Below, one piece after another: positions 188 through 32,298 of a DNA stretch of 36,625 bases. Origin of the DNA: an uncultured Ruminococcus sp. (GTDB taxonomy: Bacteria; Bacillota; Clostridia; Oscillospirales; Acutalibacteraceae); the NCBI GenBank assembly GCA_902776375.1, contig CACYPV010000017.1, forward strand, positions 1 through 36,625, in the 5' to 3' direction. The notes below the pieces were generated by a model, which had not been told where the DNA came from, did no database searches, and was given only the letters and a program-made list of their open reading frames with translations. The position numbers were made by a program, and so were the translations under genes. Position 1 is the first letter of the stretch; every line of letters begins with the position of its first letter.

Positions 188-259
188 ACATTTATTAGAG
201 AGGTACTAGGTACATTTATTAGAGAGGTACTAGGTACATTTATTAGAGAGGTACTAGGT
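188..259. repeat. Three perfect tandem copies of a 24-bp unit
   Basis: Three identical 24-base copies lie at 188-211, 212-235 and 236-259. The unit begins ACATTTATTAGAG and ends GGTACTAGGT. The last copy runs directly into the heptamer array that starts at 255. There are no spacers, so this is not a CRISPR. Confidence 0.95.
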
Positions 260-317
260 ATTAGGTATTAGGGGTTAGATAGTTCAAAGTTCAAAGTGTA
301 AAGTTCAAAGTTAAGGG
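255..317 (+). repeat. Phase-locked heptamer array, left arm of locus 1
   Basis: Nine consecutive 7-base units without a phase slip: TAGGTAT twice, TAGGGGT, TAGATAG, then TTCAAAG, TTCAAAG, TGTAAAG, TTCAAAG and TTAAGGG. The unit sequence changes halfway but the 7-base register is kept. It faces the inverted array at 483-538. Confidence 0.9.
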
Positions 318-353
318 TCGCTTCGCTTCGATTTATATTGGTGCGTGTTTAGC

Positions 354-388
354 AGAAAGGCTCCCCTTACACAGGGGAGGCTTCATTT
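354..388. repeat. Hairpin-forming intergenic sequence
   Basis: CTCCCCT (361-367) and AGGGGAG (373-379) form a 7-bp stem around TACAC. The flanking AAGG and GCTT bases extend it imperfectly. There is no adjacent coding gene on either strand and no T-tract, so it is not scored as a terminator. Similar C-rich/G-rich hairpins occur at 14778-14795. Confidence 0.55.
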
Positions 389-391
389 TTC

Positions 392-480
392 AGAAGCGTT
401 TGGTGCATTGCCGAGGGGGATTCTTCGACTTCGCTCAGAATGACAGTGGGAGGCAACGGCAAAGCACAAACGTTTCCTCT
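392..480. repeat. Core of locus 1: terminal inverted repeats around a hairpin
   Basis: The left arm (392-413, AGAAGCGTTTGGTGCATTGCCG) is repeated in imperfect inverted form at 457-480, which reads on the minus strand AGAGGAAACGTTTGTGCTTTGCCG. Between them, ATTCT and AGAAT (419-440 region) close a hairpin, followed by GACA. The motif TGCATTGCCGAGGGG recurs at 30932-30947 in locus 5, and the CGACTTCG...CTCAGRATGACA segment recurs at 14800-14842. Confidence 0.75.
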
Positions 481-482
481 AC

Positions 483-538
483 ACCCCTAATACCTAACAC
501 CTGATACCTAACACCTAATACCTAATACCTAATACCTA
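483..538 (-). repeat. Phase-locked heptamer array, right arm of locus 1
   Basis: Eight consecutive 7-base units read on the minus strand from 538: TAGGTAT three times, TAGGTGT, TAGGTAT, CAGGTGT, TAGGTAT, TAGGGGT. It is inverted relative to the array at 255-317, so the two form terminal inverted repeats around the core at 392-480. Confidence 0.92.
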
Positions 539-617
539 CCTTCTGCAAACTCCCTATATACTTAAAAAAATTACATACTTTTATATATTTTTTTCAGTTT
601 TGTAAAAGTCCTATAAA

Positions 618-710
618 AACCCTCTACAACCCTCTACAAGCTTAAATATCAGCATAGATAAGCCATTATTTTATGTAGAGGGTTGCGGTAACCCTCTACT
701 AACCCTCCAT
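618..710. repeat. Cluster of AACCCTCTAC repeats with alternative hairpins
   Basis: AACCCTCTAC occurs as a perfect tandem pair (618-627, 628-637) and again at 690-699, with its inverted copy GTAGAGGGTT at 675-684 and a degenerate copy at 701-710. 675-699 forms a perfect 10-bp hairpin with a 5-base loop, just downstream of the amidohydrolase stop. On the minus strand the tandem copies are followed by TTTTTAT, so pairing of the 675-684 arm with a 618-637 copy would be terminator-like and would compete with the 675-699 hairpin. The rest of the gap (539-617) is AT-rich with no gene seen. Confidence 0.7.
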
Positions 711-716
711 TGACTG

Positions 717-1517
717 TCAGAGAATACCTAAGATTTTTTCGGCATTTTTGTGAAAAATCATGTCTTCGGCTTGCTTGCCCAGTCCGAACGCTTTTATGTA
801 CTGTATGTAATCGTACTGGCTGTCCCACGGGGAATCGCTGGCAAAAAGGATCTTGTCGGCTCCGTGGCGCAGGATTATCTCACGGCACTTATCGGGATAA
901 GGCCGCAAAACGGCGGCGGTGTCCATGTAAACCGGCGCGCCGATAAGCTTCTCCAGCACCTCGTCGGGCATTTCGTAGCCGCCCAGATGCGCGAGGATGA
1001 GCCTGTTGTCTATAACGCCTTTTAATTCTTTTAAGACATTAAGAATCATATCGGGCGAACAGTGCAGATGATCGCGGTAGGCTGGGTCCCAGCCCGCGTG
1101 TGTGACGATATACAAACCTCTTTTTGCCGCCTCTGCCATGATATTGATATAGCGCGGGTCGTCAAAATGCACGCCCTGATAGTCGGGGTGGAATTTTATG
1201 CCGAACAAGCCGCTTTCCTTTATATAGTCGAGCGTCGCGCAGACGTCGGGGCAGTCGGGATGGATGCCGCCGGCGAAGAAAACATGGTTTTTGCCGTTGT
1301 TTTCAGCCGAAACGCGGTTGATGGTGCGCTCCTGCTTGGGGTTTGTGACAACGGGCAGCACGACGCTGTAATCGACTCCGCTGCTTTTCATGCTGTCGAT
1401 AAGCGCGCCGAGCGTGCCCCTGCGGTAAGGAAGGATACCGCCCTTTTCGGTAAGATACGCGATAGTTTTATCGGCTATCGCGTCGGGAAATGTATGTGTG
1501 TGAAAATCGATTATCAT
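717..1517 (-). CDS. Amidohydrolase family metal-dependent hydrolase
   Basis: A 266-residue soluble protein of the amidohydrolase-2 (TIM-barrel) superfamily. Metal-site motifs are in the expected order: HTHTFPD near residue 6, GIKFHPDYQG in the middle, THAGWDP, ILAHLGGYE, and FASDSPW near the C-terminus supplying the last aspartate. The length is normal and the start fits FHTHTF as strand 1. The physiological substrate cannot be read from the sequence; decarboxylases and hydrolases share this fold. It is the last gene of the nusB-dnaE direction, but 93 bases of heptamer repeats (1518-1610) separate it from dnaE, with one array ending 19 bases before its ATG. The RBS is weak (CGGAG). Confidence 0.85.
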   Translation of the reverse strand: MIIDFHTHTFPDAIADKTIAYLTEKGGILPYRRGTLGALIDSMKSSGVDYSVVLPVVTNPKQERTINRVSAENNGKNHVFFAGGIHPDCPDVCATLDYIKESGLFGIKFHPDYQGVHFDDPRYINIMAEAAKRGLYIVTHAGWDPAYRDHLHCSPDMILNVLKELKGVIDNRLILAHLGGYEMPDEVLEKLIGAPVYMDTAAVLRPYPDKCREIILRHGADKILFASDSPWDSQYDYIQYIKAFGLGKQAEDMIFHKNAEKILGIL

Positions 1518-1536
1518 GTTATACTCCGTTGTTGGT

Positions 1537-1610
1537 TAGGTATTAGGTACTAGGTATTAGTTTTTAGATAATAGATACCTAATCTCGCTAATACCTAATC
1601 TCGCTAGTAC

Positions 1611-1613
<3 letters not shown>
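1537..1613. repeat. Locus 2: facing heptamer arrays filling the dnaE-amidohydrolase gap
   Basis: On the plus strand 1537-1578 holds six in-phase units: TAGGTAT, TAGGTAC, TAGGTAT, TAGTTTT, TAGATAA, TAGATAC. On the minus strand, from 1613, two related 16-base units occur (TAGGTACTAGCGAGAT and a variant). The arms are complementary: TTAGGTATTAG (1536-1546) pairs with 1588-1598 over 11 bp, and GGTACTAG (1546-1553) with 1604-1611. The first TAG of the minus-strand arm (1613-1611) is the dnaE stop codon. Confidence 0.9.
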
Positions 1614-5108
<3,495 letters not shown>

Positions 5109-5132
5109 TGATGCTACTCCGATTTATATTGA

Positions 5133-6350: not shown

Positions 6351-6351
6351 G

Positions 6352-7284: not shown

Positions 7285-7724
7285 TGCGCCTCACCCTCGC
7301 GGCTGCGGATGAAGGAGCCGAGAATGCCGTTGACGAATCCGCTTTCGTCGATGGTGTACTTCTTGGCAAGCTCGACAGCCTCGTTGACAGACACGCTCTC
7401 GGGTACGCTGTCAAGGTATTTTATCTCGTAAACCGCGAGCCGAAGGATAGCCAGCGACGTGCGCGAAATGCGCTTTAACGACCAGCCCTTTTTGAGAAAG
7501 CGCGAGATATCGGCGTCGATCTCATCCTGCACCGCTTCAATCGACGGAACAACAGCCTGAGCATAGCCGCAGACGCCGCCCTCAAAAAGCTGCTCGGCAC
7601 AGCTCACGGTCTCCTCCCAAGGCTCCTCTACGAACGAGCGCGAAAAAAGTATCATGAACGCCTGTTCGCGCGCCTCGCTGCGGGTAAGCTTTACTTCATT
7701 TTGCGTATTTTGCTCTGCACACAT
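7281..7724 (-). CDS. nusB: Transcription antitermination factor NusB
   Basis: A 147-residue all-helical RNA-binding protein that, with NusE/S10, binds boxA and supports rRNA antitermination. Seen: the N-terminal TRSEAREQAFMILFS helix, and the C-terminal block LRLAVYEIKYLDSVPESVSVNEAVELAKKY followed by FVNGILGSF, which is diagnostic. It begins an operon nusB, TsaD-like, xseA, dnaE with its own sigma-A-type promoter at 7757-7785. This separates it from the sporulation operon immediately upstream. The RBS is weak. Confidence 0.96.
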   Translation of the reverse strand: MCAEQNTQNEVKLTRSEAREQAFMILFSRSFVEEPWEETVSCAEQLFEGGVCGYAQAVVPSIEAVQDEIDADISRFLKKGWSLKRISRTSLAILRLAVYEIKYLDSVPESVSVNEAVELAKKYTIDESGFVNGILGSFIRSREGEAQ

Positions 7725-7756
7725 ATTAACCCAACTTTACATTTTTATTCACAATA

Positions 7757-14557: not shown

Positions 14558-14575
14558 GCGGCGGCAAGCACAAAT

Positions 14576-14624
14576 TAGGTACTAGGTATTAGGTATTAGG
14601 TATTAGGGATTAGGTGTTAGAGTC
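14576..14624 (+). repeat. Phase-locked heptamer array, left arm of locus 3
   Basis: Seven in-phase units: TAGGTAC, TAGGTAT three times, TAGGGAT, TAGGTGT, TAGAGTC. It faces the 12-unit array at 14847-14930 across about 220 bases of hairpin-rich sequence. Confidence 0.93.
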
Positions 14625-14627: not shown

Positions 14628-14722
14628 GTAGGGGCGGACCCGTGTGTCCGCCCGAAAACTTTGCGCATTTCTATGCGGGCGCACACATGGGTGCGCCCCT
14701 ACGTAGTGTAATCAACGTTTCT
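14628..14722. repeat. Pair of inverted hairpin repeats (GGGCGSAC family)
   Basis: GGGCGGAC/GTCCGCCC (14632-14653) and GGGCGCAC/GTGCGCCC (14677-14698) each form a perfect 8-bp stem with a 6-base loop. They are inverted copies of one another (GTAGGGGCG[G/C]ACCC...). The G to C difference in one arm is matched by the complementary change in the other. The second copy plus its flank through ACGTAGTG and AACGTTTCT recurs at 32194-32238. Confidence 0.85.
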
Positions 14723-14761
14723 ACCCCTCTTTGGGGGTCCGTAGCCGGGCGGCAACCCTTT

Positions 14762-14842
14762 TGTCGCTTCGCGACATTTCCCCTTGAAAGGGGAATCACC
14801 TTCGACTTCGTTCCGCTTTGCTCCACTTCGCTCAGGATGACA
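14762..14842. repeat. Hairpins and CTTCG-rich element ending GATGACAG
   Basis: TGTCGC/GCGACA (14762-14776) and TTCCCCTT/AAGGGGAA (14778-14795) are perfect hairpins. They are followed by CACCTTCGACTTCG and CACTTCGCTCAGGATGACAG. The latter parallels CGACTTCGCTCAGAATGACA at 425-444. ATGACA is followed by GCTT and a heptamer array, the same order as at 30998-31010. Confidence 0.75.
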
Positions 14843-14846: not shown

Positions 14847-14930
14847 CTTATTACTTATTACTTATTACTTATAACTCACTAGCCACTAACCACTAGCCAC
14901 TAGCTTCCAGCATCCAGCATCTAGCCTCTA
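14847..14930 (-). repeat. Twelve-unit phase-locked heptamer array, right arm of locus 3
   Basis: Read on the minus strand from 14930 there are twelve 7-base units without a slip: TAGAGGC, TAGATGC, TGGATGC, TGGAAGC; TAGTGGC, TAGTGGT, TAGTGGC, TAGTGAG; TTATAAG and TAATAAG three times. Four different unit families share one register over 84 bases. The first TAG is the stop codon of the HD-domain gene. Confidence 0.95.
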
Positions 14931-15503
14931 CTTAGGTACCGCCGAGGTTCCTTTTTCTCTGAGGAACGTCGATTCAAGGTCGGCGAGGTGCAGCTTGACC
15001 GCCAGCGGATACATGTCGTACGCCTGACTTATCTGGTTGCTGTTTTTGTCGCCGAACTCGCCCATATGCCAGCGTATAGCCATGGCCTCGTCCAGCTTTA
15101 AGCGCATTTTGCGCTCGATCAGGAAAACGGACTTTTCACCGTGACCGTAGGGGAATTTATCGTCAATTGAATAGTAAGGCACCTTTTCCCACTGACCCGT
15201 CTCCTCGTTTTTGACGTTGCGGGAGCTGACCTTGTAAAACTGCGCCTTGCACAGATCGTGCAGCAGGCCGCAGATAGCAAAGCTTTCAATGCTGTCGGTC
15301 TCCTCGTCAAAGTGCTTTTCCATCATGGTGTTGAACACGCTGACGGAGTGCATGACCAGACCGTTTTTGCAGGAGCAATGGTAACGCGTACTTGCCGGCG
15401 CTTCAAAAAAATCGGTGCGCTCGATCCACTCGAGCAGCTCGTCGGCTCCCTTGCGGGTGATGTGGGTCTTGTATATTTCCAAAAATTCTTCTTTAGCGGT
15501 CAC
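14928..15503 (-). CDS. HD-domain protein (putative phosphohydrolase)
   Basis: 191 residues. HD-superfamily metal ligands are visible: H52 in GLVMHSVSV, H82-D83 in GLLHDLCK, and a late aspartate in LHLADLEST. This superfamily hydrolyses phosphate esters, often of nucleotides; the substrate here is unknown. The start is a GTG with AAGGAGG seven bases upstream. The last residues (GTSAVPK) are poorly constrained, and the stop codon is the first TAG of a 12-unit heptamer array, so the C-terminus may have been altered by the repeat. It follows the rpsA terminator. TTGCCT-N17-TTTAAT is a weak possible promoter between them. Confidence 0.8.
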   Translation of the reverse strand: MTAKEEFLEIYKTHITRKGADELLEWIERTDFFEAPASTRYHCSCKNGLVMHSVSVFNTMMEKHFDEETDSIESFAICGLLHDLCKAQFYKVSSRNVKNEETGQWEKVPYYSIDDKFPYGHGEKSVFLIERKMRLKLDEAMAIRWHMGEFGDKNSNQISQAYDMYPLAVKLHLADLESTFLREKGTSAVPK

Positions 15504-15594: not shown

Positions 15595-17754
15595 TTACTC
15601 AGCGTCTGCCGCAGCTTCCTCAACAGCTTCAACTGCCTCTTCAACAGCGGGAGCAGCTTCTTCAACTGCTTCCTCAACAGCGGGAGCGGCTTCTTCAACT
15701 GCTTCCTCAACAGCGGGAGCGGCTTCTTCAACTGCTTCCTCAACAGCGGGAGCGGCTTCTTCTACTGCTTCCTCAACAGCGGGAGCAGCCTTTACGGGAG
15801 CCTGCTCGTCCTCGGGAAGCAGAGCGCGCATTGAAAGGCTGACGCGCTTTTTGTCAAAGTCGATAGCGGTGATCTTCGCCTCGACCTCTTCGCCTACGGA
15901 GAGAACATCGGCGGGCTTTTCGATCCTCTTGTTGGCGATCTGAGAAATGTGGATAAGACCGTCAATGCCGGGGATGATGTTAGCGAATGCGCCGAAGGTG
16001 GTCAGACCTACGATCTTAGCCTTAACGACTGTGCCCTCGGGATAATCTCTCTTAAGGATCTCCCACGGATTGTCGTCGGCGTTCTTGAAGCCGAGCGAGA
16101 TCTTCTTGGTCTCCTCGTTGATATCCTTAACGTATACCTCAACGGTATCGCCAACGTTAACTACCTCACTGGGATGCTTGATATGCGTCCAGGAAAGCTC
16201 GGAAATATGTATCATACCGAATACGCCGCCAAGGTCTACGAACGCGCCGTAGCTTGTGAGTGACTTAACAACGCCGGTGTAACGCTTGCCGACTTCGCAG
16301 TTCTTCCAGAACTCTTCGCGCTGTGCCGCTCTCTGCTCCTTGAGCACGCTGCGGATAGAGCCGATAGCTCTTTTATATCTGCCGCGCTGAGATACCTCGA
16401 TAAGGCGGAAGTTCACTTCCTGACCTACGAGATCCTCAAGATTCTCGTCACGTGTAGCTGTTGCCTGGGAAGCGGGGATGAATACTCTGACGCCATTGTA
16501 GATAACGATAACGCCGCCCTTAACTGCCTCTGTCACCTTGCTTGTAAGAATCTCCTGAGAGTCTACCTTTTCCTGAAGCTCCTCCCAGCCCTTCTGCGCG
16601 TCAACTCTGCGCTTTGAGAGCATGATGGTGCCTTCCTGATCGTTTGTTCTCATAATGAGCAGCTCGACCTGATCGCCAACTTTTACAACGTCTTCGGGTT
16701 TAACCGTGGGATCGTTCGACAGCTCGTCAACGGGGACAAAGCCTGTTTGCTTTCTGCCGACGTCGACCTGAACCTCGTTGGGCGCAATGCTGAGGACTGT
16801 GCCCATTACCCTTTCGTTTGTATTTAAGTTTTTGAGGGATTCTTCAAGCAGCTCCTCAAAAGATTCTTCAAGATTTGTTGTTGTTTCACCGGATTTGATT
16901 TCTTCACTCATTGTATCCAGTACCTCCTTTATTATCCTTGCAGGTGTTGAAGCGCCTGCAGTTACGCCTATTCGTTTCGCGCGGCGAACCTGATCGATAT
17001 CGAGCTCTGCGGCGGTCTCTATAAGTACGGTATCGGGGCAGCGCCTTTTGCAGATGTCAAACAGCTTTCCTGTGTTGGAGCTGTGGCGGTCGCCGATAAC
17101 TACCATAAAGTCCGACTCAGCCGCTATCAAATCAGCCTCGCTTTGTCTAACGGACGTAGCATTACATATTGTATCAAATATTTTTGCATTTGTACATAGT
17201 TTTTTTATCTTTTTTACAGATTTTTTTAATTCTTTTGTGTCGAAAGTTGTTTGTGCGACCATTTTTACCGTTTTATTATTCTTTTCAAGAATATTAGGCA
17301 GAATATTGTCCAATTCCGACTCATTTTTAAACGTGTAATATTCGCACATGCAGTTGCCGATAATGCCCTGAACCTCGGGATGGTCGCGGTCGCCGGCGAT
17401 AAGCACGATATCCTGCTCGGGATCAGCCGCCGCGACAAGGCGGTGTATCTTCTTTACAAACGGGCAGGTAGCGTCGCGAAAATCGAGCCCTCGCTTTTCG
17501 AGGTCGTCGATGACCGACTTAGGCACGCCGTGGCTGCGGATGACGAGTATTTCGTCCGCGCCAAGCTCGTCGACGCTGTTTATCGGGCGGCAGCCCTTTT
17601 GCCTGAGCTCCTCCACCATCTCCATGTTGTGGATTATGGGGCCGAGAGTGCAAACGCTTTTGCCCTGAGAGAGCAGCTCGTTCACCATTTCGACCGCGCG
17701 GCTCACACCGAAGCAGAAACCCGCCGACTCAGCCTTTTTTAAGCTCGTTTGCAT
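15595..17754 (-). CDS. ispH-rpsA: Fusion: IspH (HMBPP reductase) - ribosomal protein S1
   Basis: 719 residues. Residues 1-285 are IspH, the 4Fe-4S enzyme making IPP/DMAPP in the last step of the MEP pathway, with cluster cysteines C14 (AGFCFGV), C97 (DATCPFV) and C197 (TICNATS) and RSHGVP. A linker leads to four S1 RNA-binding domains at roughly 312-380, 395-465, 485-555 and 570-640. The GAFVDLGGVFGMIHISELSW and GAFANIIPGIDGLIHISQI blocks are the clearest. The protein ends in an acidic tail of 11-residue repeats (APAVEEAVEEA). Such IspH-S1 fusions are known in Clostridia. It overlaps the end of plsC by 26 bases, and a strong terminator follows. Confidence 0.95.
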   Translation of the reverse strand: MQTSLKKAESAGFCFGVSRAVEMVNELLSQGKSVCTLGPIIHNMEMVEELRQKGCRPINSVDELGADEILVIRSHGVPKSVIDDLEKRGLDFRDATCPFVKKIHRLVAAADPEQDIVLIAGDRDHPEVQGIIGNCMCEYYTFKNESELDNILPNILEKNNKTVKMVAQTTFDTKELKKSVKKIKKLCTNAKIFDTICNATSVRQSEADLIAAESDFMVVIGDRHSSNTGKLFDICKRRCPDTVLIETAAELDIDQVRRAKRIGVTAGASTPARIIKEVLDTMSEEIKSGETTTNLEESFEELLEESLKNLNTNERVMGTVLSIAPNEVQVDVGRKQTGFVPVDELSNDPTVKPEDVVKVGDQVELLIMRTNDQEGTIMLSKRRVDAQKGWEELQEKVDSQEILTSKVTEAVKGGVIVIYNGVRVFIPASQATATRDENLEDLVGQEVNFRLIEVSQRGRYKRAIGSIRSVLKEQRAAQREEFWKNCEVGKRYTGVVKSLTSYGAFVDLGGVFGMIHISELSWTHIKHPSEVVNVGDTVEVYVKDINEETKKISLGFKNADDNPWEILKRDYPEGTVVKAKIVGLTTFGAFANIIPGIDGLIHISQIANKRIEKPADVLSVGEEVEAKITAIDFDKKRVSLSMRALLPEDEQAPVKAAPAVEEAVEEAAPAVEEAVEEAAPAVEEAVEEAAPAVEEAVEEAAPAVEEAVEAVEEAAADAE
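15609..15787 (-). repeat. 33-bp tandem repeat coding the acidic S1 tail
   Basis: About five near-identical 33-base copies encode the 11-residue unit APAVEEAVEEA at the end of the IspH-S1 fusion. The copies are almost identical in DNA, indicating recent expansion or homogenisation. The unit is a multiple of 3 and keeps the frame, unlike the intergenic 7-base arrays. Confidence 0.9.
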
Positions 17755-21996: not shown

Positions 21997-22755
21997 ATGT
22001 ACGCAAAAAGAATAATCCCCTGCCTCGACGTAAAAAACGGCAGGGTAGTTAAGGGCGTGAGCTTTGTCAACATCGTCGACGCGGGCAATCCCGTTGAGTG
22101 CGCCATTCAGTACGACAGGCAGGGCGCGGACGAACTGGTGTTTTTGGACATAACCGCGAGCAGCGACTCGCGCAACATAACTATAGACATGGTGGAAAAG
22201 GTTGCAAACTCCATCTTTATCCCCTTCACCGTCGGCGGCGGCATCCGCAGCGTTGACGACTTCAACGCCCTGCTTCGCGCGGGAGCGGACAAGGTGAGCG
22301 TGAACTCAGCGGCGGTGCACCGTCCCGAGCTTATCAGCGAGGCGGCTTACAAATTCGGCAGCCAATGCGTAGTGGCGGCTATCGACGCGAAGCGCAAGGG
22401 CGACGGCGCCTGGGAGGTCTACATAAACGGCGGCAGAAAGCCTATGGGAATAGACGCCGTGCAGTGGGCTGTCGAGTGCGAAAGGCGCGGCGCGGGCGAG
22501 ATATTGCTTACTAGCATGGACGAGGACGGTCAGAAGAAGGGCTACGACCTCGCGCTGACAAGAGCCGTTAGCGAGCGCGTTGGCATACCCGTTATAGCCA
22601 GCGGCGGCGCGGGCGCTTTGGAGCACTTTTACGACGCGTTCACCGAGGGCAAGGCTGACGCGGTGCTAGCCGCTTCCCTGTTCCACTTCGGCGAGATACC
22701 CATTCCGGAGCTGAAAAAATATCTGAATGATAAAGGAATTTCGGTTAGAAGCTAG
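21997..22755 (+). CDS. hisF: Imidazole glycerol phosphate synthase cyclase subunit HisF
   Basis: A 252-residue TIM barrel that cyclises PRFAR with ammonia from HisH to give IGP and AICAR. Seen: [19 protein letters not shown] at the start with the first catalytic aspartate, [35 protein letters not shown] with the second aspartate, and IASGGAG. The RBS AGAGGAGAA lies at the end of hisH. The stop TAG at 22753-22755 is the first of five TAGs spaced exactly seven bases. Confidence 0.97.
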
Positions 22756-22787
22756 AGGCTAGATGCTAGAAGCTAGATGCTAGAAGC
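22753..22787 (+). repeat. Phase-locked heptamer array starting at the hisF stop (locus 4)
   Basis: Five units: TAGAGGC, TAGATGC, TAGAAGC, TAGATGC, TAGAAGC, then a degenerate TGGAAAT. AACGGAAAAC follows at 22798, resembling the AACGGAAACG that follows the array at 30915 in locus 5. No facing array is seen before the next gene. Confidence 0.93.
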
Positions 22788-22821
22788 TGGAAATTTAACG
22801 GAAAACATCTGCAAAATTTAT

Positions 22822-25483: not shown

Positions 25484-25492
25484 ATCCTTCCG

Positions 25493-27562
25493 TTAAGATT
25501 CTGTTGTGTAAGTTTTGTCTGGCTCGACGATAAGCCCCTTTTCGTTCGGCGCGGGGTACTGCTCGGTTCCGCTTTCGGCGCCGTCGTTGAAGATGATAAG
25601 CGGAGTCTCCCAGTCATCGGTGAAGGTGTAGCTGTACTTGCCGTCCGCTTCCTTCTTCATCGGCTCACCCGGCCAGTCGTCGTTGAACTCATCGTCGGTG
25701 TTGTAGATGTAGACGTGAACATTTTCCTGCCACGGGTCGGGCTTTTGGAAGTAAACCTTCGTGCCCTTCTTTATCTCGTACTTGGTTTCAAAGGTGAACT
25801 CGACGCGCTCGTAGGTCTTTGCGCCATCCTTGTTCTCGGCGCGCAGCTCGACCTTTACAACATTGCCGCTGCTTGGCTTGCTGACGGTGATCTTGTCGCC
25901 GTTCTTGAATTCCTTCGCCTCGGCTCCGTCGATCGAATACGTGCCCTTATCGGCGTTTTCAAGGGTGAGGTTGACCGAAATGCTGTCCTTATCGGTCTTG
26001 AACTCGGTATCCTCAGCGACGCCGACGTTCGCCATGGGCGCGCGCTCGGTGTAGCCGTCGTTGTAAAGCACCACTACAGTGTTTTCGGGGATAGCCTTGC
26101 CGGACGTGAGCTTGCCGCCCTTTACGGTGTAAACGGTCTTGCCGTCAACGCGGTCGGTGTATTCGCCATCGGGAAGGTTGATATCGAAGTCGGCTTTTAA
26201 TTCTTTTTCAGAATTAACAATAACTGCGCCCTTTTTGCCGCGCTCTACGATGATGGCGGTCGAGTCGTTCGCGGGATTTACAAGGGTCTCCTCTTCGCCT
26301 GTCATGGCGGTGCGGAAGAAGTTGACCGCGCTGACCCTTGAGTCCTTGTACATATCGTCGCCCTGAGGTCCGATGCGGTTCATGCCCCAGTTGTTTTCCT
26401 CGGTGGCGTTATACGGACGCGAGAAGAACAGCGGCGTGCCGCCCTCGCGCGAGGCGATGATAGCCCAGCCCATGATGACCTGATCGTTGTCGAGCTCGCG
26501 CCAGGTTTGGTCGTTGATGTAGTTATCGTGGGATTCGACCCAGGTGACGAGCTGCTTCGGGTCGCGGTCTATCCAGTACTCGCTCACCACGCCGGTGTCG
26601 AGCGTGCCGTTCTTAACAGCCGCGCGGAGCTTGCCGCCGTAGGTGCTGGAGGTCGTCCTGCCGATAGCGTCAACATATTCCTCAATCATGTCGTTGCCGC
26701 CCTGCAAGACCTCGCCGTAGATGAACTTGCTGTCGTAGTCCTTTGTTTCGGTCTTCACCTTATCCCAGAAGTTATTTTCAAAGCCGTCGTTCTCCTTGGG
26801 GTCCTCGGGCAGACCGATGTGCTTTGCCGTGTCGTAGCGGAAGCCGTCGGCGCCGCAGTCGATGCAGTCGTTGATATACTTAAAGAAGTATTCCTGGAAT
26901 GAGGGGCGCTCGGTGTTGATGTCGGGCAGTCCGCCCATTTTGGCGGTCGTGCACTGCAAGCGGTCGCCGTAGTCCGTGATATCCTTCTCGTTGTTCTTGT
27001 GGAACAGCGTTTCAAAGCTGCCGCCGCCCGCGTCTATCAGATCCTGAGATACCGCGTCGAGCTGAGGCGTGGTGTGGTTGGCGATAACGTCGACGATGAC
27101 CTTCACGTCGTACTTATGGGCTTCGTCGCACATTTCTTTGAATTCGTCGCGCGTGCCGAGCTGATAGTTGCCTATCTTAAAATCGGTCGGCTGATAGTGG
27201 TAGTACCATTTGCCGTCGCCGTAAAGCTCCATTCCGCCGCCCTCGCCGACCAAGCACTCGTTTACGGGCGAGGTCTGCACCGCGGTAAAGCCCGCCGCGG
27301 CGATATCGGGCATGGACTCTTTGATGGTGTTGAAGTCCCAGCTGAACACCTGTAAAACAGAACCGTTAGCCACCCTTGCCAAGGCTTCGGGGTCGCTCTT
27401 TTTATCAGAGCTGCCGGAGGTCTGCGAGGAGCCGTTGCCGTCCGAGCTGTCAGCCGCTTTTGATGAAGCGCTGCTATCGCCCTCGCCGCAGGCGCTCAAA
27501 GCAAAAGCGGAGCCTGTGAGCATCAAAGCCGCCAGCAATGAGGTTATTATTCTTTTACGCAA
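25493..27562 (-). CDS. Lipoprotein alpha-amylase (GH13) with CBM26-type module
   Basis: 689 residues. A lipoprotein signal with lipobox LSAC (C25) is followed by a Ser/Gly/Asp linker to about 58. The GH13 barrel has DVIANH (158-163), nucleophile D244 in GFRYDTAKH, acid/base E284 in FIYGEVLQ and D346 in VESHDN. A beta-sandwich region spans about 500-595. Residues 598-689 (VYFQKPDPW ... VYIYNT ... WPGEPM ... IIFNDG) match the CBM26 starch-binding pattern. It is therefore a surface-anchored starch hydrolase. The start is TTG with GGTGAT upstream. The promoter sits inside a 60-bp near-palindrome, suggesting dedicated control. Confidence 0.93.
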   Translation of the reverse strand: MRKRIITSLLAALMLTGSAFALSACGEGDSSASSKAADSSDGNGSSQTSGSSDKKSDPEALARVANGSVLQVFSWDFNTIKESMPDIAAAGFTAVQTSPVNECLVGEGGGMELYGDGKWYYHYQPTDFKIGNYQLGTRDEFKEMCDEAHKYDVKVIVDVIANHTTPQLDAVSQDLIDAGGGSFETLFHKNNEKDITDYGDRLQCTTAKMGGLPDINTERPSFQEYFFKYINDCIDCGADGFRYDTAKHIGLPEDPKENDGFENNFWDKVKTETKDYDSKFIYGEVLQGGNDMIEEYVDAIGRTTSSTYGGKLRAAVKNGTLDTGVVSEYWIDRDPKQLVTWVESHDNYINDQTWRELDNDQVIMGWAIIASREGGTPLFFSRPYNATEENNWGMNRIGPQGDDMYKDSRVSAVNFFRTAMTGEEETLVNPANDSTAIIVERGKKGAVIVNSEKELKADFDINLPDGEYTDRVDGKTVYTVKGGKLTSGKAIPENTVVVLYNDGYTERAPMANVGVAEDTEFKTDKDSISVNLTLENADKGTYSIDGAEAKEFKNGDKITVSKPSSGNVVKVELRAENKDGAKTYERVEFTFETKYEIKKGTKVYFQKPDPWQENVHVYIYNTDDEFNDDWPGEPMKKEADGKYSYTFTDDWETPLIIFNDGAESGTEQYPAPNEKGLIVEPDKTYTTES

Positions 27563-27571
27563 TTAAAATCA

Positions 27572-27641
27572 CCGTCTTTCTGTAAAATGATGTGGAATGA
27601 TCTATACCACTTCATTATAACACAAAGACGGCGAATAGCAA
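27572..27641 (-). promoter_or_regulatory. Amylase promoter embedded in a 60-bp near-palindrome
   Basis: On the minus strand TTGCTA (27636-27641), a 16-base spacer and TATAAT (27614-27619) preceded by TGT. The stretch 27572-27631 is an interrupted palindrome: CCGTCTTT (27572-27579) opposes AAAGACGG (27624-27631), and AATGATGTGG (27586-27595) opposes CCACTTCATT (27607-27616). Both pairs share the centre near 27601. Only half lies in the transcript, so a DNA-level operator is more likely than an RNA hairpin. Confidence 0.75.
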
Positions 27642-27730
27642 ATACTTTTTTATATTTTGTTTTTACTTTATATAAAACTTCTCTATCCCGCCGCTGATGA
27701 ACGCTTGGTAAAGCGAACCTTTCCAAAGGC

Positions 27731-27747
27731 GGGCGAAAGCGCCCACC
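27731..27747 (-). other. Hairpin after the Ig-like/transglutaminase gene, possible weak terminator
   Basis: On the minus strand GGGCG-CTTT-CGCCC forms a short GC stem just after the stop at 27754, followed by only TTT. There is no proper T-tract, so it is a weak terminator at best. Confidence 0.4.
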
Positions 27748-27753
27748 GGCGCA

Positions 27754-29172
27754 CTACTCTTCGGCGTACTCCTCGTAGCCTTCATAGTCTTCCTCGTAGT
27801 ATTCCTCATAGGCTTCCCCGTCCCCCTGATCGTCCGCCGGTACGTCGTTTTGATCGGCTGAGGGCTGAGATCCGGCCTGAGTGGTCGCCTGAGTCGCCTG
27901 CTGACCCGATTCTGCGCCTACCTCGATAGCAGGAGCCTTGTCTCTGTCCCAATTGAAGAAGTATGAATAGTCGTCGATGAAGTATTGATCATCGGCGGTT
28001 CGGATAGTGAAGAACTGCGCGTCAACGTGCTTCCAGCCGTTTATGGTCTTGCTTAGGCACCACGAATGTTCGTTCACATGGTCGAGCGCACTGATGCCCA
28101 CGACCCTTATCGTCTCATAGCCGCAGCGGTTGTAAAGATAGCACAGCATCGCGCCGTGAGTAAAGCAATTGCCTTTTTCAGTTTTGAAGTAATCGACGCA
28201 GAGGTTCTCGTCGGTATCGTCCTCGTTGGCACCGTATGAAATAGCGTAGACAAAATCGAAGATTTCGCGCTTGTCGGTGCCTATCGAAAACAGCAGATCG
28301 TCAGCCATGACGGGCAGGGTGTCTACAGTAAACTTGCTGTAGTTAGTTATGTCCTCGAACGCCTTGTTGTATATCCAGCCGTAGTTGCTGCCGTATTTCA
28401 CGTGCAGCCAGTGGCCGTCGTCGCTTTTGCCGTACTGCTTGACCTGAGCGCCCTCGGGCACCTTGACAACGGACGGGAAGTTCCAGCCCGCCTCCTTTTG
28501 GAGCGCTGTGGGATAAAGGGTAGTTCTGTCGGTGTAACCGCTGTCGTTGAGCACCGTGACCTTGATATCGGCTTTCTGACCGTTGTATACAACGCCCGTA
28601 ACGGTCGCCGTGCCCTCGCCCGCCGCCGTGATCTCACCGCCGGAAACGGAAACGATGTTGCTGTCGGACGATGTGAGCTTTGCGGGTCCAAAGCCCTCGT
28701 CCTTTGCCGTTGGCTGCAGCGTCAGCGTGGTGGTCTCACCCTTTTGCAGCTTTAAAGCGCCGACCGGGAAAGCGACCTTTGCCGGAGCTTTTCGGACGGT
28801 CACATAGTACTTTGCGGTCTTGCCGCCCGCGGATTTCTTGGTAACGATAGCGTAACCCTCGGCGTTGGCGGTCATGAGCCCCGAGCTTTCATTAACGGTC
28901 AGAACGTTCGTTCTGTCGCAGGTGAAGGCGTCGCCCTCGGCTGCGGGTACCGCGGCGGTCTCGCCTACGCCCATGGTGAGCATGGGGTCGGACACTATGC
29001 TGGTTTCGGGAGGGATAGCGGAGTCGGGATTTTCGGTGGCGGACTGAGCTTTTTCCGAGCCTGAATCGCTGCCGGAGCCTCGGTTCACCGTGACGATCAC
29101 CACGATAAAGGCGGTGATGATGATCAAAGCCACAGCTATCAAAACGACTTTGTTGGTCTTGTTGGTTTTCAT
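27754..29172 (-). CDS. Membrane-anchored Ig-like/SH3/transglutaminase-like protein
   Basis: 472 residues. An N-terminal membrane segment (VVLIAVALIIITAFIVVIVTV, about 9-29) and low-complexity linker lead to two bacterial Ig-like (Big_2-type) domains at about 60-128 and 132-207 (LKLQKGETTTLTL, EGTATVTGVVYNGQKADIKVTV). An SH3-like domain follows at about 232-270 (VKQYGKSDDGHWLHVKYGSNYGWIY). A transglutaminase-like domain has C336 (GNCFTHGAM), H369 (NEHSWC) and D384 (KHVDAQFF). The tail is Gln/Thr-rich, then acidic with repeated Glu-Tyr. It probably acts outside the cell on wall or proteins; no substrate can be named. It starts 15 bases after the mini-III gene with a good GGAGG. Confidence 0.85.
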   Translation of the reverse strand: MKTNKTNKVVLIAVALIIITAFIVVIVTVNRGSGSDSGSEKAQSATENPDSAIPPETSIVSDPMLTMGVGETAAVPAAEGDAFTCDRTNVLTVNESSGLMTANAEGYAIVTKKSAGGKTAKYYVTVRKAPAKVAFPVGALKLQKGETTTLTLQPTAKDEGFGPAKLTSSDSNIVSVSGGEITAAGEGTATVTGVVYNGQKADIKVTVLNDSGYTDRTTLYPTALQKEAGWNFPSVVKVPEGAQVKQYGKSDDGHWLHVKYGSNYGWIYNKAFEDITNYSKFTVDTLPVMADDLLFSIGTDKREIFDFVYAISYGANEDDTDENLCVDYFKTEKGNCFTHGAMLCYLYNRCGYETIRVVGISALDHVNEHSWCLSKTINGWKHVDAQFFTIRTADDQYFIDDYSYFFNWDRDKAPAIEVGAESGQQATQATTQAGSQPSADQNDVPADDQGDGEAYEEYYEEDYEGYEEYAEE

Positions 29173-29187
29173 TTCGATATCCTCCGT

Positions 29188-29565
29188 TTACACAAGCTTG
29201 ATTATCATATCAAACAGCTCGTCTATCCTGCCCTTTTCGCCGCTGAGATACAAGTATCCAAACAGACATTCAAGCCCCGTTGCGCTGTGATACTCGGCAA
29301 CAGTGCCGTTTTTGGCGATGGATTTGGGCGCCGCGTTCCTGCCGCGCTTGTACACGGCTACCTCTTTTTCGCTCAGATGAGGCATCAGCTTTGAAGCAAA
29401 CTGCGCCTGACTTTTGCAGTTTACCATGGCGACCTTGGTTTTGTTGAGCTCGCCCACGGGGCGGTTAGCCTGCCGCACAAGATACTCGCGCACCAGCAGG
29501 TCGTAAACCCCGTCGCCCACAAAGGCAAGGGTGAGCGGTGATAATTCGTCTGTAGAATTATGCAT
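29188..29565 (-). CDS. mrnC: Mini-ribonuclease III
   Basis: A 125-residue RNase III-like catalytic domain without a dsRNA-binding domain. It matures 23S rRNA in Bacillus. The two acidic motifs are FVGDGVYDLLVREYL near the N-terminus and EYHSATGLECLFGYLYL near the C-terminus, and VNCKSQAQFASKL lies between them. In many Firmicutes the gene follows cysS; here it follows obgE by five bases, which still places it among ribosome-assembly genes. Confidence 0.93.
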   Translation of the reverse strand: MHNSTDELSPLTLAFVGDGVYDLLVREYLVRQANRPVGELNKTKVAMVNCKSQAQFASKLMPHLSEKEVAVYKRGRNAAPKSIAKNGTVAEYHSATGLECLFGYLYLSGEKGRIDELFDMIIKLV

Positions 29566-29570
29566 AGCTG

Positions 29571-30848
29571 TTACTCCATAAAATCAAATTCAACGTCGTA
29601 AATCGATACGGTGTCGCCGTCCTCGGCGCCCTTTTGACGAAGCGCCTCGATAACGCCGCCGTTGTCGAGCACCTTTTGGAAATAGCTGAGGCTTTCGTAG
29701 TCGTCAAAATTGATGCCGCGCATGACCTGAAGCAGCCAGTCAGCCTCAACGACATAAACGCCGTTGACATTTTTGACGGTGACGCTGTGGTCGTCGAAGT
29801 CCTCGACCCGCATAACGGGAGCGGGCTCGGGCTCAAAGGTCGCGATAGGCGGAAGCTTTGAGAGCATTTCCTGTATCTTTTTCAGCAGCGGGTCAACGTC
29901 GTAGCGGATAGCCGCCATTATCGGGAAAAAGTCGTAGCCCTGAGCGTTGACGTACTGCTTGAAGTCCTCTATCTGCTCGTCGGTCGCCATGTCGCACTTG
30001 TTGCCGGCGACTACCATCGGGCGCTCGGCGAGCTCGGGATTGAACTTTTCAAGCTCGGAGTTTATCGTTTCAAAGTCCTCTTTGGGGTCGCGCCCCTCGC
30101 TGCCGGAAACGTCTACTATATGCACCAGCATGCGGCAGCGCTCGACGTGGCGCAAAAACTGATGTCCAAGTCCGCTGCCCTGCCACGCGCCCTCGATAAG
30201 CCCGGGGATATCAGCCATTACAAAGCTGGAGCCCTCGCCCATCGAAACAACGCCCAAAACGGGAGTGATGGTGGTGAAATGGTAGTTGGCGATCTCGGGC
30301 TTAGCCTGTGAAACAACGCTCACCAGCGTGCTTTTGCCCACGTTGGGAAAGCCCACAAGACCTACGTCCGCAAGCAGCTTCAGCTCGAGCACAACGTCGT
30401 ATTCTTCGCCCGGAAGCCCGGGCTTTGCGAAGCGCGGGACCTGACGCACGGGGGTTGCGAAATGCGGGTTGCCCCAGCCGCCCTTGCCGCCCTTGGCTAC
30501 GACATGCGGCTCCTTGTCGGAGATATCGGCGAGGATCCTGCCGGTGCTCTCCTCCTTTATCACCGTGCCAAACGGCACCTTGATAACAAGGTTTTCGGCG
30601 TTTTTGCCGTTGCACCTGCCGCCCCTGCCGTTTTCGCCGCGCTGAGCGGTGTATTTTCTTTTGTATCGAAAGTCGGCGAGCGTGGACAGATTGGTGTCGG
30701 CGACAAAGATAATGTCGCCGCCCTTGCCGCCGTCGCCGCCGTCGGGACCGCCCGCAGCGACGTATTTTTCACGGTGAAAAGCCACAGCGCCGTCGCCGCC
30801 GTCGCCCGCCTTGATGCGTATATTTGCCTTGTCTACGAACAATGACAT
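29571..30848 (-). CDS. obgE: GTPase ObgE/CgtA
   Basis: A 425-residue GTPase for 50S assembly and stress/sporulation control. The glycine-rich Obg domain spans 1-158 (AGDGGDGAVAFHREKYVA, GGPDGGDGGKGGDI). The G domain starts with GFPNVGKST (166-174), followed by DIPGLIEGA and GNKCD. A C-terminal OCT domain (VKNVNGVYVVEADWLLQVMRGINFDDYESL) is present. The RBS GGAGGTG is strong. A heptamer array begins 18 bases before the start codon, so the promoter must lie inside repeat sequence or be rpmA read-through. Confidence 0.97.
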   Translation of the reverse strand: MSLFVDKANIRIKAGDGGDGAVAFHREKYVAAGGPDGGDGGKGGDIIFVADTNLSTLADFRYKRKYTAQRGENGRGGRCNGKNAENLVIKVPFGTVIKEESTGRILADISDKEPHVVAKGGKGGWGNPHFATPVRQVPRFAKPGLPGEEYDVVLELKLLADVGLVGFPNVGKSTLVSVVSQAKPEIANYHFTTITPVLGVVSMGEGSSFVMADIPGLIEGAWQGSGLGHQFLRHVERCRMLVHIVDVSGSEGRDPKEDFETINSELEKFNPELAERPMVVAGNKCDMATDEQIEDFKQYVNAQGYDFFPIMAAIRYDVDPLLKKIQEMLSKLPPIATFEPEPAPVMRVEDFDDHSVTVKNVNGVYVVEADWLLQVMRGINFDDYESLSYFQKVLDNGGVIEALRQKGAEDGDTVSIYDVEFDFME

Positions 30849-30866
30849 GGTATCACCTCCGGTTCA

Positions 30867-30915
30867 TAGGTAATAGGTATTAGATGCTAGAGGCTAGAAG
30901 CTAGATACTAGATGT
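30867..30915 (+). repeat. Phase-locked heptamer array, left arm of locus 5
   Basis: Seven in-phase units on the plus strand: TAGGTAA, TAGGTAT, TAGATGC, TAGAGGC, TAGAAGC, TAGATAC, TAGATGT. It abuts the obgE RBS. Units here are the same as those at the hisF and folD ends. Confidence 0.93.
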
Positions 30916-31004
30916 ATTAACGGAAACGTTTGTGCATTGCCGAGGGGTATATCTCGACTATTTTGCTACGCAAAATTGCCTACGGCACCGCTCGAGATGA
31001 CATG
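30916..31004. repeat. Core of locus 5: three-way-junction-like inverted repeats
   Basis: After AACGGAAACGTTTGTGCATTGCCGAGGGG-type sequence (split over 30919-30947), ATCTCGA (30951-30957) pairs with TCGAGAT (30992-30998). Inside are two smaller hairpins, both with a TAC loop: ATTTTGC/GCAAAAT (30960-30976) and TGCC/GGCA (30977-30987). The outer stem is followed by GACATG and the facing array. The first part matches the locus 1 core. Confidence 0.75.
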
Positions 31005-31053
31005 CTTATAACTTATAACTTATAACTTATAACTCACTAACCACTAGCCACTA
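31005..31053 (-). repeat. Phase-locked heptamer array, right arm of locus 5
   Basis: On the minus strand from 31053: TAGTGGC, TAGTGGT, TAGTGAG, then TTATAAG four times, in one register. The same unit order (TAGTGGC/T, TAGTGAG, TTATAAG) occurs in the array at 14847-14930. Confidence 0.95.
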
Positions 31054-31085
31054 TAATAAAACAGGGTGAGTAAACCTACCCACCC
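31052..31085 (-). terminator. Intrinsic terminator after rpmA
   Basis: On the minus strand GGGTGGGTA and TACTCACCC form a 9-bp stem (one G-U) with loop GGTT, followed by TGTTTTATT. It begins eight bases after the rpmA stop. Confidence 0.88.
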
Positions 31086-31093
31086 ATAAAAAC

Positions 31094-31378
31094 TTACTGC
31101 TCGACAGGATAAACGCTGGCGCGCTTTCTGTCCTTGCCCATGCGCTCAAAGCGCAGTACGCCGTCGATCTTCGCAAACAGAGTATCGTCGGAACCCTTGC
31201 CTACGTTCTCGCCGGGATGAATGTGTGTTCCTCTCTGCTTAACGAGGATGTTGCCCGCGAGGACCTTCTGTCCGTCAGCGCGCTTAACGCCAAGACGCTT
31301 TGACATGCTGTCGCGGCCGTTCTTGGTGGAACCCATTCCCTTTTTATGAGCAAATAACTGAATGTTGATTTTAAGCAT
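31094..31378 (-). CDS. rpmA: 50S ribosomal protein L27 (bL27), with cleavable N-terminal extension
   Basis: 94 residues. L27 reaches the peptidyl-transferase centre with its N-terminus. Here the mature start [15 protein letters not shown] is preceded by MLKINIQLF, the extension that in Firmicutes is removed by Prp after the phenylalanine. The body has the usual [17 protein letters not shown] and [11 protein letters not shown] blocks. It lies four bases after prp and is followed by a terminator. Confidence 0.97.
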
Positions 31379-31382
31379 TACC

Positions 31383-31700
31383 TTACACCTCCGAAATTTT
31401 TAAATCAATAAAGTCTGGATACTCTTCGCAAAGAGCATTTAAGTGGAGCAGCAGCCCGTTCAAAATTACCTGAGCCGGCTGTGCTTCGGCGCTTGACAGG
31501 CTTAGCTTCATAAACCCGTCGTTTACGGTGATGTCACACTTGAGCCCGAGAACGTCGGTAACGGTGTTGGCGGTCATGTACGCCGCCGAGCTTACCGCCG
31601 CGCAGACGATGTCGCTGCCCTGAGCGGAAAAATCCGAATGTCCGCTTATCTCATAGCCCGTGATGATCTTGCTTTCTACCGTAAAAACCGCCTGAATCAT
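31383..31700 (-). CDS. prp: Ribosomal-processing cysteine protease Prp
   Basis: A 105-residue protease that removes the N-terminal extension of L27. The catalytic dyad is H21 (ISGHSDF) and C33 ([18 protein letters not shown]). It sits in the canonical place between rplU and rpmA. Its ATG overlaps the rplU stop (TAATG), and the partner L27 does carry the extension. Confidence 0.93.
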
Positions 31701-32008
31701 TACGCCTCGATAGATGTGATCTTAACCTGAGTGTAAGGCTGTCTGTGACCCATAACTCTCTTTTCGTTCTTCTTGGGCTTGTAAGTAGCCACTCTGATCT
31801 TCTTGCCCTTGCCGTTCTTTACGACCTCGGCTGTCACCTTAGCGCCCTCAACAAAGGGTGTGCCTACCTTGATACCGTCGTCGGTACCGAGAGCGACAAC
31901 GTCAAAGGTAACGGTGTCGTTAGCTTCAGCGTCAAGCTTCTCGATGAAGATAACTTCGTCGTTCTGTACCTTGTACTGCTTGCCGCCTGTCTGGATTACT
32001 GCGTACAT
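31700..32008 (-). CDS. rplU: 50S ribosomal protein L21 (bL21)
   Basis: 102 residues. It begins MYAVIQTGGKQYKVQ and ends GHRQPYTQVKITSIEA, both diagnostic for bL21. The start at 32008 is chosen over the longer frame to 32119, because the extra 37 residues are translated leader RNA. Promoter and structured leader lie directly upstream. It is first in rplU-prp-rpmA. Confidence 0.97.
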   Translation of the reverse strand: MYAVIQTGGKQYKVQNDEVIFIEKLDAEANDTVTFDVVALGTDDGIKVGTPFVEGAKVTAEVVKNGKGKKIRVATYKPKKNEKRVMGHRQPYTQVKITSIEA

Positions 32009-32104
32009 AGTTTCATTCCTTTTTATTAGTCTCGCTATCGTCGGGTGAGGTATGTGAAATACCTGCTTTTGGGCGCAGCTACGCCATACCCGCAATATGC
32101 GGCC
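32009..32104 (-). ncRNA. L21-type leader RNA (probable autoregulatory 5' UTR)
   Basis: Between the predicted transcription start (about 32103) and rplU the RNA can form CCGCA-TAT-TGCGG, GGCG-TAGCTG-CGCC and AGGTAT-TTCAC-ATACCT hairpins; an outer CGGG/CCCG pairing is also possible. Firmicutes rplU operons often carry such an L21 leader; the GGGTATGG segment and position fit, but a covariance-model search was not possible here. Confidence 0.6.
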
Positions 32105-32109
32105 TTTTA

Positions 32110-32138
32110 AATATACCACGCGTTTGCGTTTTTGTCAA
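32110..32138 (-). promoter_or_regulatory. Sigma-A promoter for rplU-prp-rpmA
   Basis: On the minus strand TTGACA (32133-32138), a 17-base spacer and TATATT (32110-32115) preceded by TGG. A consensus-like strong promoter, as expected for ribosomal genes. Confidence 0.92.
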
Positions 32139-32153
32139 GTACTTTAGATTAAT

Positions 32154-32239
32154 TAGTGGTTAGTATCCGCCCGATAACGTCGCGTTATTCTGCGGGCGCA
32201 CACATGGGTGCGCCCCTACGTAGTGAAAACAACGTTTCT
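32154..32239. repeat. Locus 6, left array and GGGCGCAC hairpin core
   Basis: Two in-phase units TAGTGGT, TAGTATC (32154-32167) are followed by CGCCCGATAACG/CGTTAT and then the perfect hairpin GGGCGCAC-ACATGG-GTGCGCCC (32194-32215), CTACGTAGTG and AACAACGTTTCT. The stretch from CCGCCCGA to AACGTTTCT is a second copy of 14648-14721. Confidence 0.85.
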
Positions 32240-32249
32240 GCTAATTTAA

Positions 32250-32298
32250 TTCCGAATTCCGCATTCCGAATTCCGCATTATCTAGCTTCTAGCCTCTA
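32250..32298 (-). repeat. Phase-locked heptamer array containing the folD stop (locus 6)
   Basis: On the minus strand from 32298: TAGAGGC, TAGAAGC, TAGATAA, TGCGGAA, TTCGGAA, TGCGGAA, TTCGGAA, all in one register. The third TAG (32284-32282) is the folD stop codon; the first two lie out of frame inside the last codons of folD. Confidence 0.93.

Follow-up and report, generated by a model that had tools for sequence, protein, structure and literature searches.

The DNA analysed here, positions 1 to 36,625 of contig CACYPV010000017.1 from an uncultured Ruminococcus sp. (assembly GCA_902776375.1; hereafter the window, 36,625 nucleotides), contains tandem arrays of 7-base units (heptamers) in the gaps between its open reading frames (ORFs), and these arrays probably belong to small mobile elements associated with the protein family S23p (PF05635). 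An earlier note made from the letters alone had listed six intergenic heptamer loci, and we found all of them at approximately the positions it gave. Throughout, G000 denotes the source genome (2.64 Mb, 76 contigs, 98.9% complete), G0xx the genomes of relatives and Lxxx the loci or stretches examined. By Obg, the nearest named relatives are uncultured Ruminococcus and Clostridiales genomes with 92-95% protein identity, several of them labelled RUG, which we take to stand for rumen genomes. A search of the window against Rfam at the gathering threshold gave no match.

The cores at 14628..14702, 14703..14842 and 32167..32247 were delimited by reading the sequence. The first locus begins on the plus strand with a left array whose outer part consists of TAGGTAT-type units (class A, 249..278) and whose inner part, the units TTCAAAG, TTCAAAG, TGTAAAG, TTCAAAG and a final TTA (279..313), follows the register TNNAHAR by register alignment. 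A subterminal module, AAGGGTCGCTTCGCTTCGATTTATATTGG (313..345, plus strand), was located by the inner-module search and its match to L241; a core with hairpin modules (346..485) and a right array of CCTAATA, or TAGGTAT on the minus strand (486..538), complete the locus. The array and inner module at 286-340 match the left end of L241, an S23p element of the same genome, over 55 bp at 84%. Immediately ahead of this first array, at 188-260, a 24-base unit, ACATTTATTAGAGAGGTACTAGGT, is repeated three times without a mismatch; it contains TAGGTAC and looks like a longer repeat derived from the array edge. The second locus is a small element without a long core, with a TAGGTAT-type left array (1536..1560, plus) and a right arm formed by a 16-bp repeat containing ATACCTA (1575..1613, minus), from which ORF 1611-5108 on the minus strand takes its terminating TAG. 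The third has a TAGGTAT-type left array (14574..14620, plus), a core of two facing GTAG-tagged palindromes resembling repetitive extragenic palindromes (REPs; 14628..14702) that continues into hairpin-like modules (14703..14842), and a minus-strand right array whose inner part, of TTATAAG/TAATAAG type (14847..14876), matches the array of S23p element L240, and whose outer part, of TAGTGGC then TAGATGC type (14877..14930), matches arrays at two S23p elements, L210 of G017 and L213 of the own genome, and ends in the stop codon of ORF 14928-15503.

The fourth locus is a lone plus-strand array of TAGAAGC/TAGATGC (22746..22792) that matches S23p element L213; the ORF that ends at 22755 takes its stop codon from this array. 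The fifth, in the rpmA-obg gap, is a composite of a left array of TAGGTAT then TAGATGC type (30867..30914, plus), a hairpin core (30915..31000) and a right array of TTATAAG then TAGTGGC (31005..31053, minus). The right array matches one S23p element of the own genome, L240, and two of G017, L210 and L245; on the left, array and adjacent inner sequence (30880-30931) match an end of L213 over 52 bp at 81%. The sixth has a short left arm of two TAGTGGT-type units (32154..32166, plus), a core of one GTAG-tagged palindrome plus CAACGTTTCTGCTAA (32167..32247) and a right array of TTCGGAA/TGCGGAA then TAGAAGC (32248..32297, minus), which supplies the stop codon of ORF 32282-33139. In total, four ORFs of the window are terminated by a TAG from an array, and GTAG-tagged palindromes occur solely in cores, at 14628-14702 and within 32167-32247. 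The inward pairs of arrays that the earlier note had described are present, but the locus it placed at 22753-22801 is one array alone and the left arm at 32154 has just two units. Its observation that the unit changes in constant register is real, as in TAGTGGC-TAGTGAG-TTATAAG at 31005-31053 and TAGGTAT to TTCAAAG at 249-313. A 33-base tandem repeat of 4.8 copies (15627-15786) within ORF 15595-17754 is a repetitive protein segment with no heptamer sign.

Base identity in the noncoding DNA of the window peaked at lags 7, 14, 21 and 28 (0.341, 0.331, 0.310 and 0.304), the remaining lags giving 0.250-0.310, and the coding DNA showed period 3 alone. A strict test of 437 kb of G000 (20 stretches, half of them selected for containing pattern matches) found 91 regions at lag 7 versus 0-6 at the non-multiples of 7 among lags 4-35. 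In the whole genome, TAGN4TAGN4TAGN4TAG was matched 308 times on the forward and 276 times on the reverse strand, each array accounting for several matches, and the same pattern read backwards had 2 and 2. Period 7 does exceed the other periods, the outcome on which the earlier note had staked its proposal, and with intergenic tandem 7-base units at many places the genome belongs among the carriers of heptameric repeats. Among 43 neighbouring array pairs at most 450 bp apart, 35 were purine-rich then pyrimidine-rich, that is, inward-facing (the others being 5 ‘++’, 2 ‘-+’ and 1 ‘--’), and slightly altered settings gave 35/5/1/1 plus one tie. Array pairs of other heptamers, mostly facing and with short cores between them, were found in the relatives G035, G017, G012, G013, G023 and G027; sampled stretches of G010, G016 and G043 held none, nor did those of G029 after N runs were removed. 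Purine/pyrimidine polarity was rejected as the basic rule: it is true for most G000 pairs and is broken by L112, whose arrays face by TAG and not by purine content, and by S23p loci such as L266 and L270, whose upstream side is pyrimidine-rich. The inverted match between the two arms is the firmer rule, though with exceptions of its own.

The profile searches (PF05635, PF01797, RVT_1 and the inner module) covered 59 genomes, namely G000 and 58 relatives. The inner module, AGGGTCGCTTCGCTCCGATTT with at most two mismatches, occurred 23 times in G000, once inside L241 (an S23p element) and once at position 314 of the window among them, and a reversed control occurred 0 times. A lag-7 array lay directly before 22 of the 23 copies, the remaining one falling one match under threshold, and the module was preceded by four heptamers and a three-base tail in a single register. 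In the 69 units nearest the module (three per copy, not 69 independent events because the copies are mutually related), position 1 was T in 67, positions 4 and 6 were A in all 69 and position 7 was a purine in all 69, giving the register TNNAHAR, while positions 2, 3 and 5 varied to yield 22 distinct units. Several units thus occupy one phase because they have fixed letters in common. The module was present in 11 of the 58 relatives, 10 of which have S23p, the remaining one being G030. Three module-variant copies in G021 (C41:6421-6669) are spaced exactly 114 bases apart and are possibly a tandem of whole small elements.

These arrays might be ordinary heptameric simple repeats produced by polymerase slippage, with no mobile element involved. 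Heptamers are over-represented in many bacteria (PMC4692102), adjacent units often differ by a few bases, and the right array of an S23p element has 6 units in plasmid L310 and 5 in L363, which are 92.6% identical. Slippage predicts neither the inward facing nor that arrays at 23 loci should join one module at a fixed point and in a fixed register, nor the flanking of S23p genes, the matched inverted units and the empty sites described below, and we consider it very unlikely as the full explanation.

The link to S23p was first noticed by reading composite L059 (8972-9555, G000), which encloses an ORF of PF05635 (23S_rRNA_IVP, “S23p”, an Avd-like four-helix bundle), and the family-wide test was done afterwards. 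Four proteins of the source genome match PF05635 at 64-136 bits (cut-off 33.8) and so are members. The genome set gave 103 matches, of which ten partial or low-scoring ones were excluded; at the 93 loci examined, a lag-7 array was sought in the 220 bp before and the 220 bp after the match and was found upstream of 43, downstream of 35 and on both sides of 32. The same loci gave 0-3 at lags 4-6, 8-13 and 15, and 33, 25 and 18, respectively, at lag 14, a multiple of 7. Eighteen plasmid places, taken from 32 and 25 plasmid records matched, comprised 12 from Cyanobacteriota and 1 each from Bacteroidota, Bacillota, Spirochaetota, Chloroflexota, Pseudomonadota and Gemmatimonadota; arrays lay upstream of 16, downstream of 16 and on both sides of 15 when the downstream window started 30 bases within the gene end, and of 16, 13 and 13 when it lay strictly outside the gene. 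The counts were 8, 3 and 3 of 11 viral-contig loci (four being near-duplicates) and 10, 7 and 5 in a class-wide sample of 29 loci out of the more than 100 matches listed. Controls gave 5, 4 and 1 of 82 genes on four of the plasmids, 6, 6 and 1 of 33 window ORFs, and 0, 0 and 0 of 10 PF01797 loci. The proteins that the earlier note had thought might be supplied in trans thus have a candidate in PF05635, which is encoded between the same kind of ends, with matched units and inner sequence in the same genome.

Some S23p genes stand in settings of their own. Those of L229, L231, L248 and L250, 82-95% mutually identical, have a one-sided array at threshold, and in L229 and L231 the array pair sits on that single side; by eye, the S23p gene of a Gemmatirosa plasmid (L315) is followed by an 8-base repeat, CCTGCCCT, and not a 7-base one. 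In three cyanobacterial plasmids (L307, L313, L321), S23p genes with arrays on both sides, inverted in L307 and in the same direction in L313 and L321, lie between cas6 and cas4 or cas2 and cas1. S23p genes between cas genes have been reported as having a function associated with CRISPR (clustered regularly interspaced short palindromic repeats; PMC3936711). A simple reading may be that these reports reflect insertion, as for S23p genes elsewhere.

Array density also followed the family. A first count included stretches selected for matches and a second omitted them; in the second, stretches with S23p had 61 arrays in 600 kb, or 10.2 per 100 kb (8 genomes, one all N; 39 of the 61 from G000, two of them flanking its own S23p gene), and stretches without S23p had 1 in 267 kb, or 0.37 per 100 kb (7 genomes, one all N), the stretches of G002 and of G017 (C1-C3), which are N, being scored as 0 kb. 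A competing partner is the REP-associated tyrosine transposase (RAYT), a Y1 transposase that would move the GTAG-tagged core palindromes. GTAG REPs and their RAYTs have been described (PMC3733652), the palindromes at 14628-14702 have this form, and PF01797 has matches in the array-bearing G007, G012, G017, G023 and G035. The profile had no match, however, in the array-rich G000 (98.9% complete) or in G027, G010 has 4 matches and no arrays in its sample, and none of the 10 PF01797 loci had an array on either side. On the absence from G000 and the unflanked loci, RAYT was rejected as the partner, and movement of the palindromes by such an enzyme is highly improbable as the origin of the window loci.

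The two arms of an S23p locus resemble each other. In G000 and the relatives, the left unit and the inverted right unit differed by 0 or 1 letter in 28 of 33 pairs (mean 0.70, versus 2.96 for arrays of different genomes), and the inverted fit was better in 30, tied in 2 and worse than the direct one in 1. Inverted pairs also numbered 12 of 15 on plasmids, where 3 were direct, and 2 of 3 on viral contigs. This bears on the possibility that S23p genes and hairpin cores are passengers in heptamer arrays that were there before them, much as REPs receive insertion sequences. Cores and arrays do reassort among loci, the same-direction pairs (3 of 15 on plasmids, 1 of 33 in the relatives) fit such an origin, and small cyanobacterial repeats reportedly lie within heptamer arrays (Elhai et al. 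2008). Insertion into a direct array would nevertheless leave both sides in the same direction, contrary to the 30 of 33 and 12 of 15 that are inverted, and the empty sites (L360, L361 and the rpmA-obg gap in L070-L074) have no array; we therefore regard passengers as unlikely.

The gene-bearing and gene-less elements of one genome have their ends in common, as seen in G035 and G000: the single S23p element found in G035 and its free-standing elements have AGATAAC and both inner sequences in common. Also in G035, L179:5469-5945 carries an S23p-type array and inner module and then possibly a different ORF, a possible capture of another gene. Over nine genomes, arrays agreed on average better with the S23p heptamers of their own genome (0.40) than with those of others (0.16; permutation p 0.0004), and 43% of 90 G000 arrays were exactly equal to one of 43 S23p-flank heptamers (own included), versus 7% after shuffling. 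The more two S23p proteins diverged, the more distant were their heptamers (Mantel r -0.30, p 0.001, 63 loci), which fits binding and common descent alike and is not used here as proof of recognition.

Orthologous gaps were compared between genomes. The rpmA-obg gap of the window holds the composite of ~190 bp, following a terminator. The gap could be measured in 71 relatives, and the composite is missing in the five nearest of them (Obg identity 92-94%), where the gaps are 48, 63, 73 and 106 bp and, in one, 260 bp of other sequence with no lag-7 array. Identical arrays at all orthologous sites, which the earlier note had named as the finding that would speak against it, are therefore not what the close relatives have. 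L083 and L102 carry other heptamer arrays in this gap, L102 being a clean facing pair of a different unit. Between a TraM-like gene and the next gene on Nostoc plasmids, L360 is empty, L310 and L363 carry the S23p element with 6 or 5 right units, and L362 and L364 carry, by eye, gene-less heptamer elements of other units. In L364, heptamer arms surround a palindromic-repeat core, the plan of the window composites in another phylum. The nrdB-nrdA site is empty in L361 and filled in L309. At both plasmid sites a neighbouring gene has its stop codon right next to the element; the empty forms carry 42 (TraM-like) and about 13 bases (nrdB-nrdA) where the element stands. As judged from these alignments, the empty and filled sites support mobility. 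The earlier note's mobile non-coding element thus stands as mobile and not as purely non-coding, since gene-bearing versions exist.

A model of the viral-contig S23p L325 (mean predicted local distance difference test score 93.8) matched 2gsc (template-modelling score, TM, 0.88), 2rld, then Avd in the ribonucleoprotein of a diversity-generating retroelement (8ub7; chain B, TM 0.82, E 0.004) and then 4dwl (TM 0.76). In the Pfam family bAvd, the own-genome S23p L213 scored 43.6 bits (cut-off 40) and L240 32.3, and the other two had no match. The likeness to Avd has been stated in the literature (PMC10053308), and S23p is a homopentamer in the solved structure (PMC4990558). The S23p family is also that of the proteins in intervening sequences of ribosomal RNA (rRNA), one of which has three tandem GACAGAT heptamers before the S23p ORF (PMC4990558). 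The facing arrays could accordingly be an RNase III processing stem in a transcript, as in those sequences, kept for regulation and spread by recombination alone, and window 250-540 does fold whole as one long stem (z -5.6 versus shuffles). As RNA, two other elements fold to a small degree better than shuffles, namely the rpmA-obg composite, whose arms are unlike (z -1.96), and one from G035 whose arms are alike (z -2.03); the S23p gene runs with both neighbours at 10, against both at 5 and mixed at 1 of 16 annotated plasmid loci, and processing alone leaves the dispersal unexplained. A processing stem is quite unlikely as the whole account, and processing and mobility are mutually compatible.

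Taken together, the window loci are, in our judgement, probably copies, lacking the gene, of small mobile elements that form a family associated with S23p. The evidence supports an insertion family with two ends, some members of which bear the gene while others do not; most copies look like ones without the S23p gene, and the fuller copies, in several phyla, look like ones carrying it between the same ends. A fuller copy consists of tandem heptamers, usually 4-5, a short stretch that includes the subterminal module, one S23p gene, and the same heptamers again, generally inverted. We suggest that a ring of S23p may grip the heptamers once the element has folded, each subunit perhaps taking one unit, that it may act in trans on the gene-less copies, and that copies may be made or inserted near gene ends by a host enzyme. 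Unit letters would then drift at the free positions while the contacted letters and the 7-base step were retained, and such drift would account for several units in one register. The bolder proposal, a new class of mobile element in which an Avd-like pentameric S23p ring reads tandem heptamers on folded arms, one per subunit, and together with a host polymerase spreads both types of copy, rebuilding the ends in 7-base steps, is possible but doubtful. If true, the reading of heptamers by the ring would also explain the cyanobacterial heptameric repeats.

Several observations weigh against the explanation by S23p-associated mobile elements. Arrays are not obligatory at S23p genes: 45 of 89 loci with readable flanks on both sides had none at threshold, nor had 17 of the 29 class-wide loci, and 56 kb of G010 held no array although that genome has 3 S23p genes. 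Conversely, S23p was not found in G004 (81% complete, stretches chosen from matches), which has 9 arrays in 34 kb, or in G030, which has 4 module copies with 2 mismatches; several of the genomes compared are incomplete. Units number 4-5 in 89 of the 107 arrays found at S23p loci, but the bound of 4 was imposed by the detection length, shorter arrays being undetectable. Both arrays point in the same direction in plasmids L313, L321 and L323. The heptamers of the own genome were strictly the best match in 3 of the nine genomes, tied in 2 and beaten in 4, and the G013 arrays fitted the S23p heptamers of G000 (0.65) better than their own (0.18). With two of the three folded elements near z -2, a strong stem is not seen in every copy. 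Neither of the two aligned plasmid sites, whose flanks are 95.7% and 85.8% identical, showed a target-site duplication, nor was an enzyme for copying or insertion identified. A resident reverse transcriptase as a required partner is not supported, RVT_1 being unmatched in the array-bearing G005, G007, G013, G023 and G027, although no search was aimed at the surroundings of the S23p genes; G000 has two partial matches, at contig ends. Terminator T-tracts as the insertion target, an impression from reading the sequences, were rejected when a test gave weak enrichment alone (T-runs at 17 of 152 outer element ends versus 5.8% of 1177 controls).

Among the open-licence papers found, none linked S23p to heptamer arrays, save for the GACAGAT repeats noted above (PMC4990558), whose accessible text gives S23p proteins no known function, and for the cause of bacterial heptameric tandem repeats that of PMC4692102 offers nothing beyond the slippage hypothesis. 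Should short DNA be moved by S23p with no known transposase involved, the mechanism of mobility would be one that the papers found do not describe. Joining heptamers and S23p makes both testable: there is a protein, its own heptamers are the predicted target, and sites occur naturally both empty and filled.

Compared with known systems, the elements resemble diversity-generating retroelements in the fold of Avd (TM 0.82 to 8ub7 chain B) and differ from them in that several array-bearing genomes have no RVT_1 match. GTAG REPs, with their RAYTs (PMC3733652), are likewise small palindromic non-autonomous repeats, and GTAG palindromes occur in the present cores, but the transposase was not found in G000 and the present elements end in heptamers. 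As in miniature inverted-repeat transposable elements, gene-less copies have ends in common with gene-bearing ones; here, however, the ends are heptamer arrays of variable number, no target duplication was seen at the two aligned sites, and the partner, S23p, is not a known transposase. Heptamers also form the short tandemly repeated repetitive (STRR) sequences of cyanobacteria, and many of the plasmid S23p matches are cyanobacterial. Nostoc also carries small dispersed repeats, which are reportedly short, structured, found beside or inside heptamer arrays and presumed mobile (Elhai et al. 2008), and we know of no partner protein for them. Our arrays share intergenic tandem heptamers of few units and a species-specific unit with the STRR sequences and with the G-rich heptamers described in Xanthomonas and Nostoc (PMC4692102), whereas the accessible part of that description ties those repeats to no protein or two-ended element. 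The intervening sequences of 23S rRNA have the same protein family, PF05635, and at least one of them has tandem purine-rich heptamers before its ORF (PMC4990558). Unlike those, which lie within rRNA genes, the window loci are intergenic between ORFs, the elements have matched heptamer arrays at both ends, and 1 of 76 array groups (in 437 kb) is known to enclose S23p (L059). Longer ORF-bearing and shorter ORF-less forms at the same sites have likewise been described for the LAGLIDADG rRNA insertions of the candidate phyla radiation (CPR; PMC11270868).

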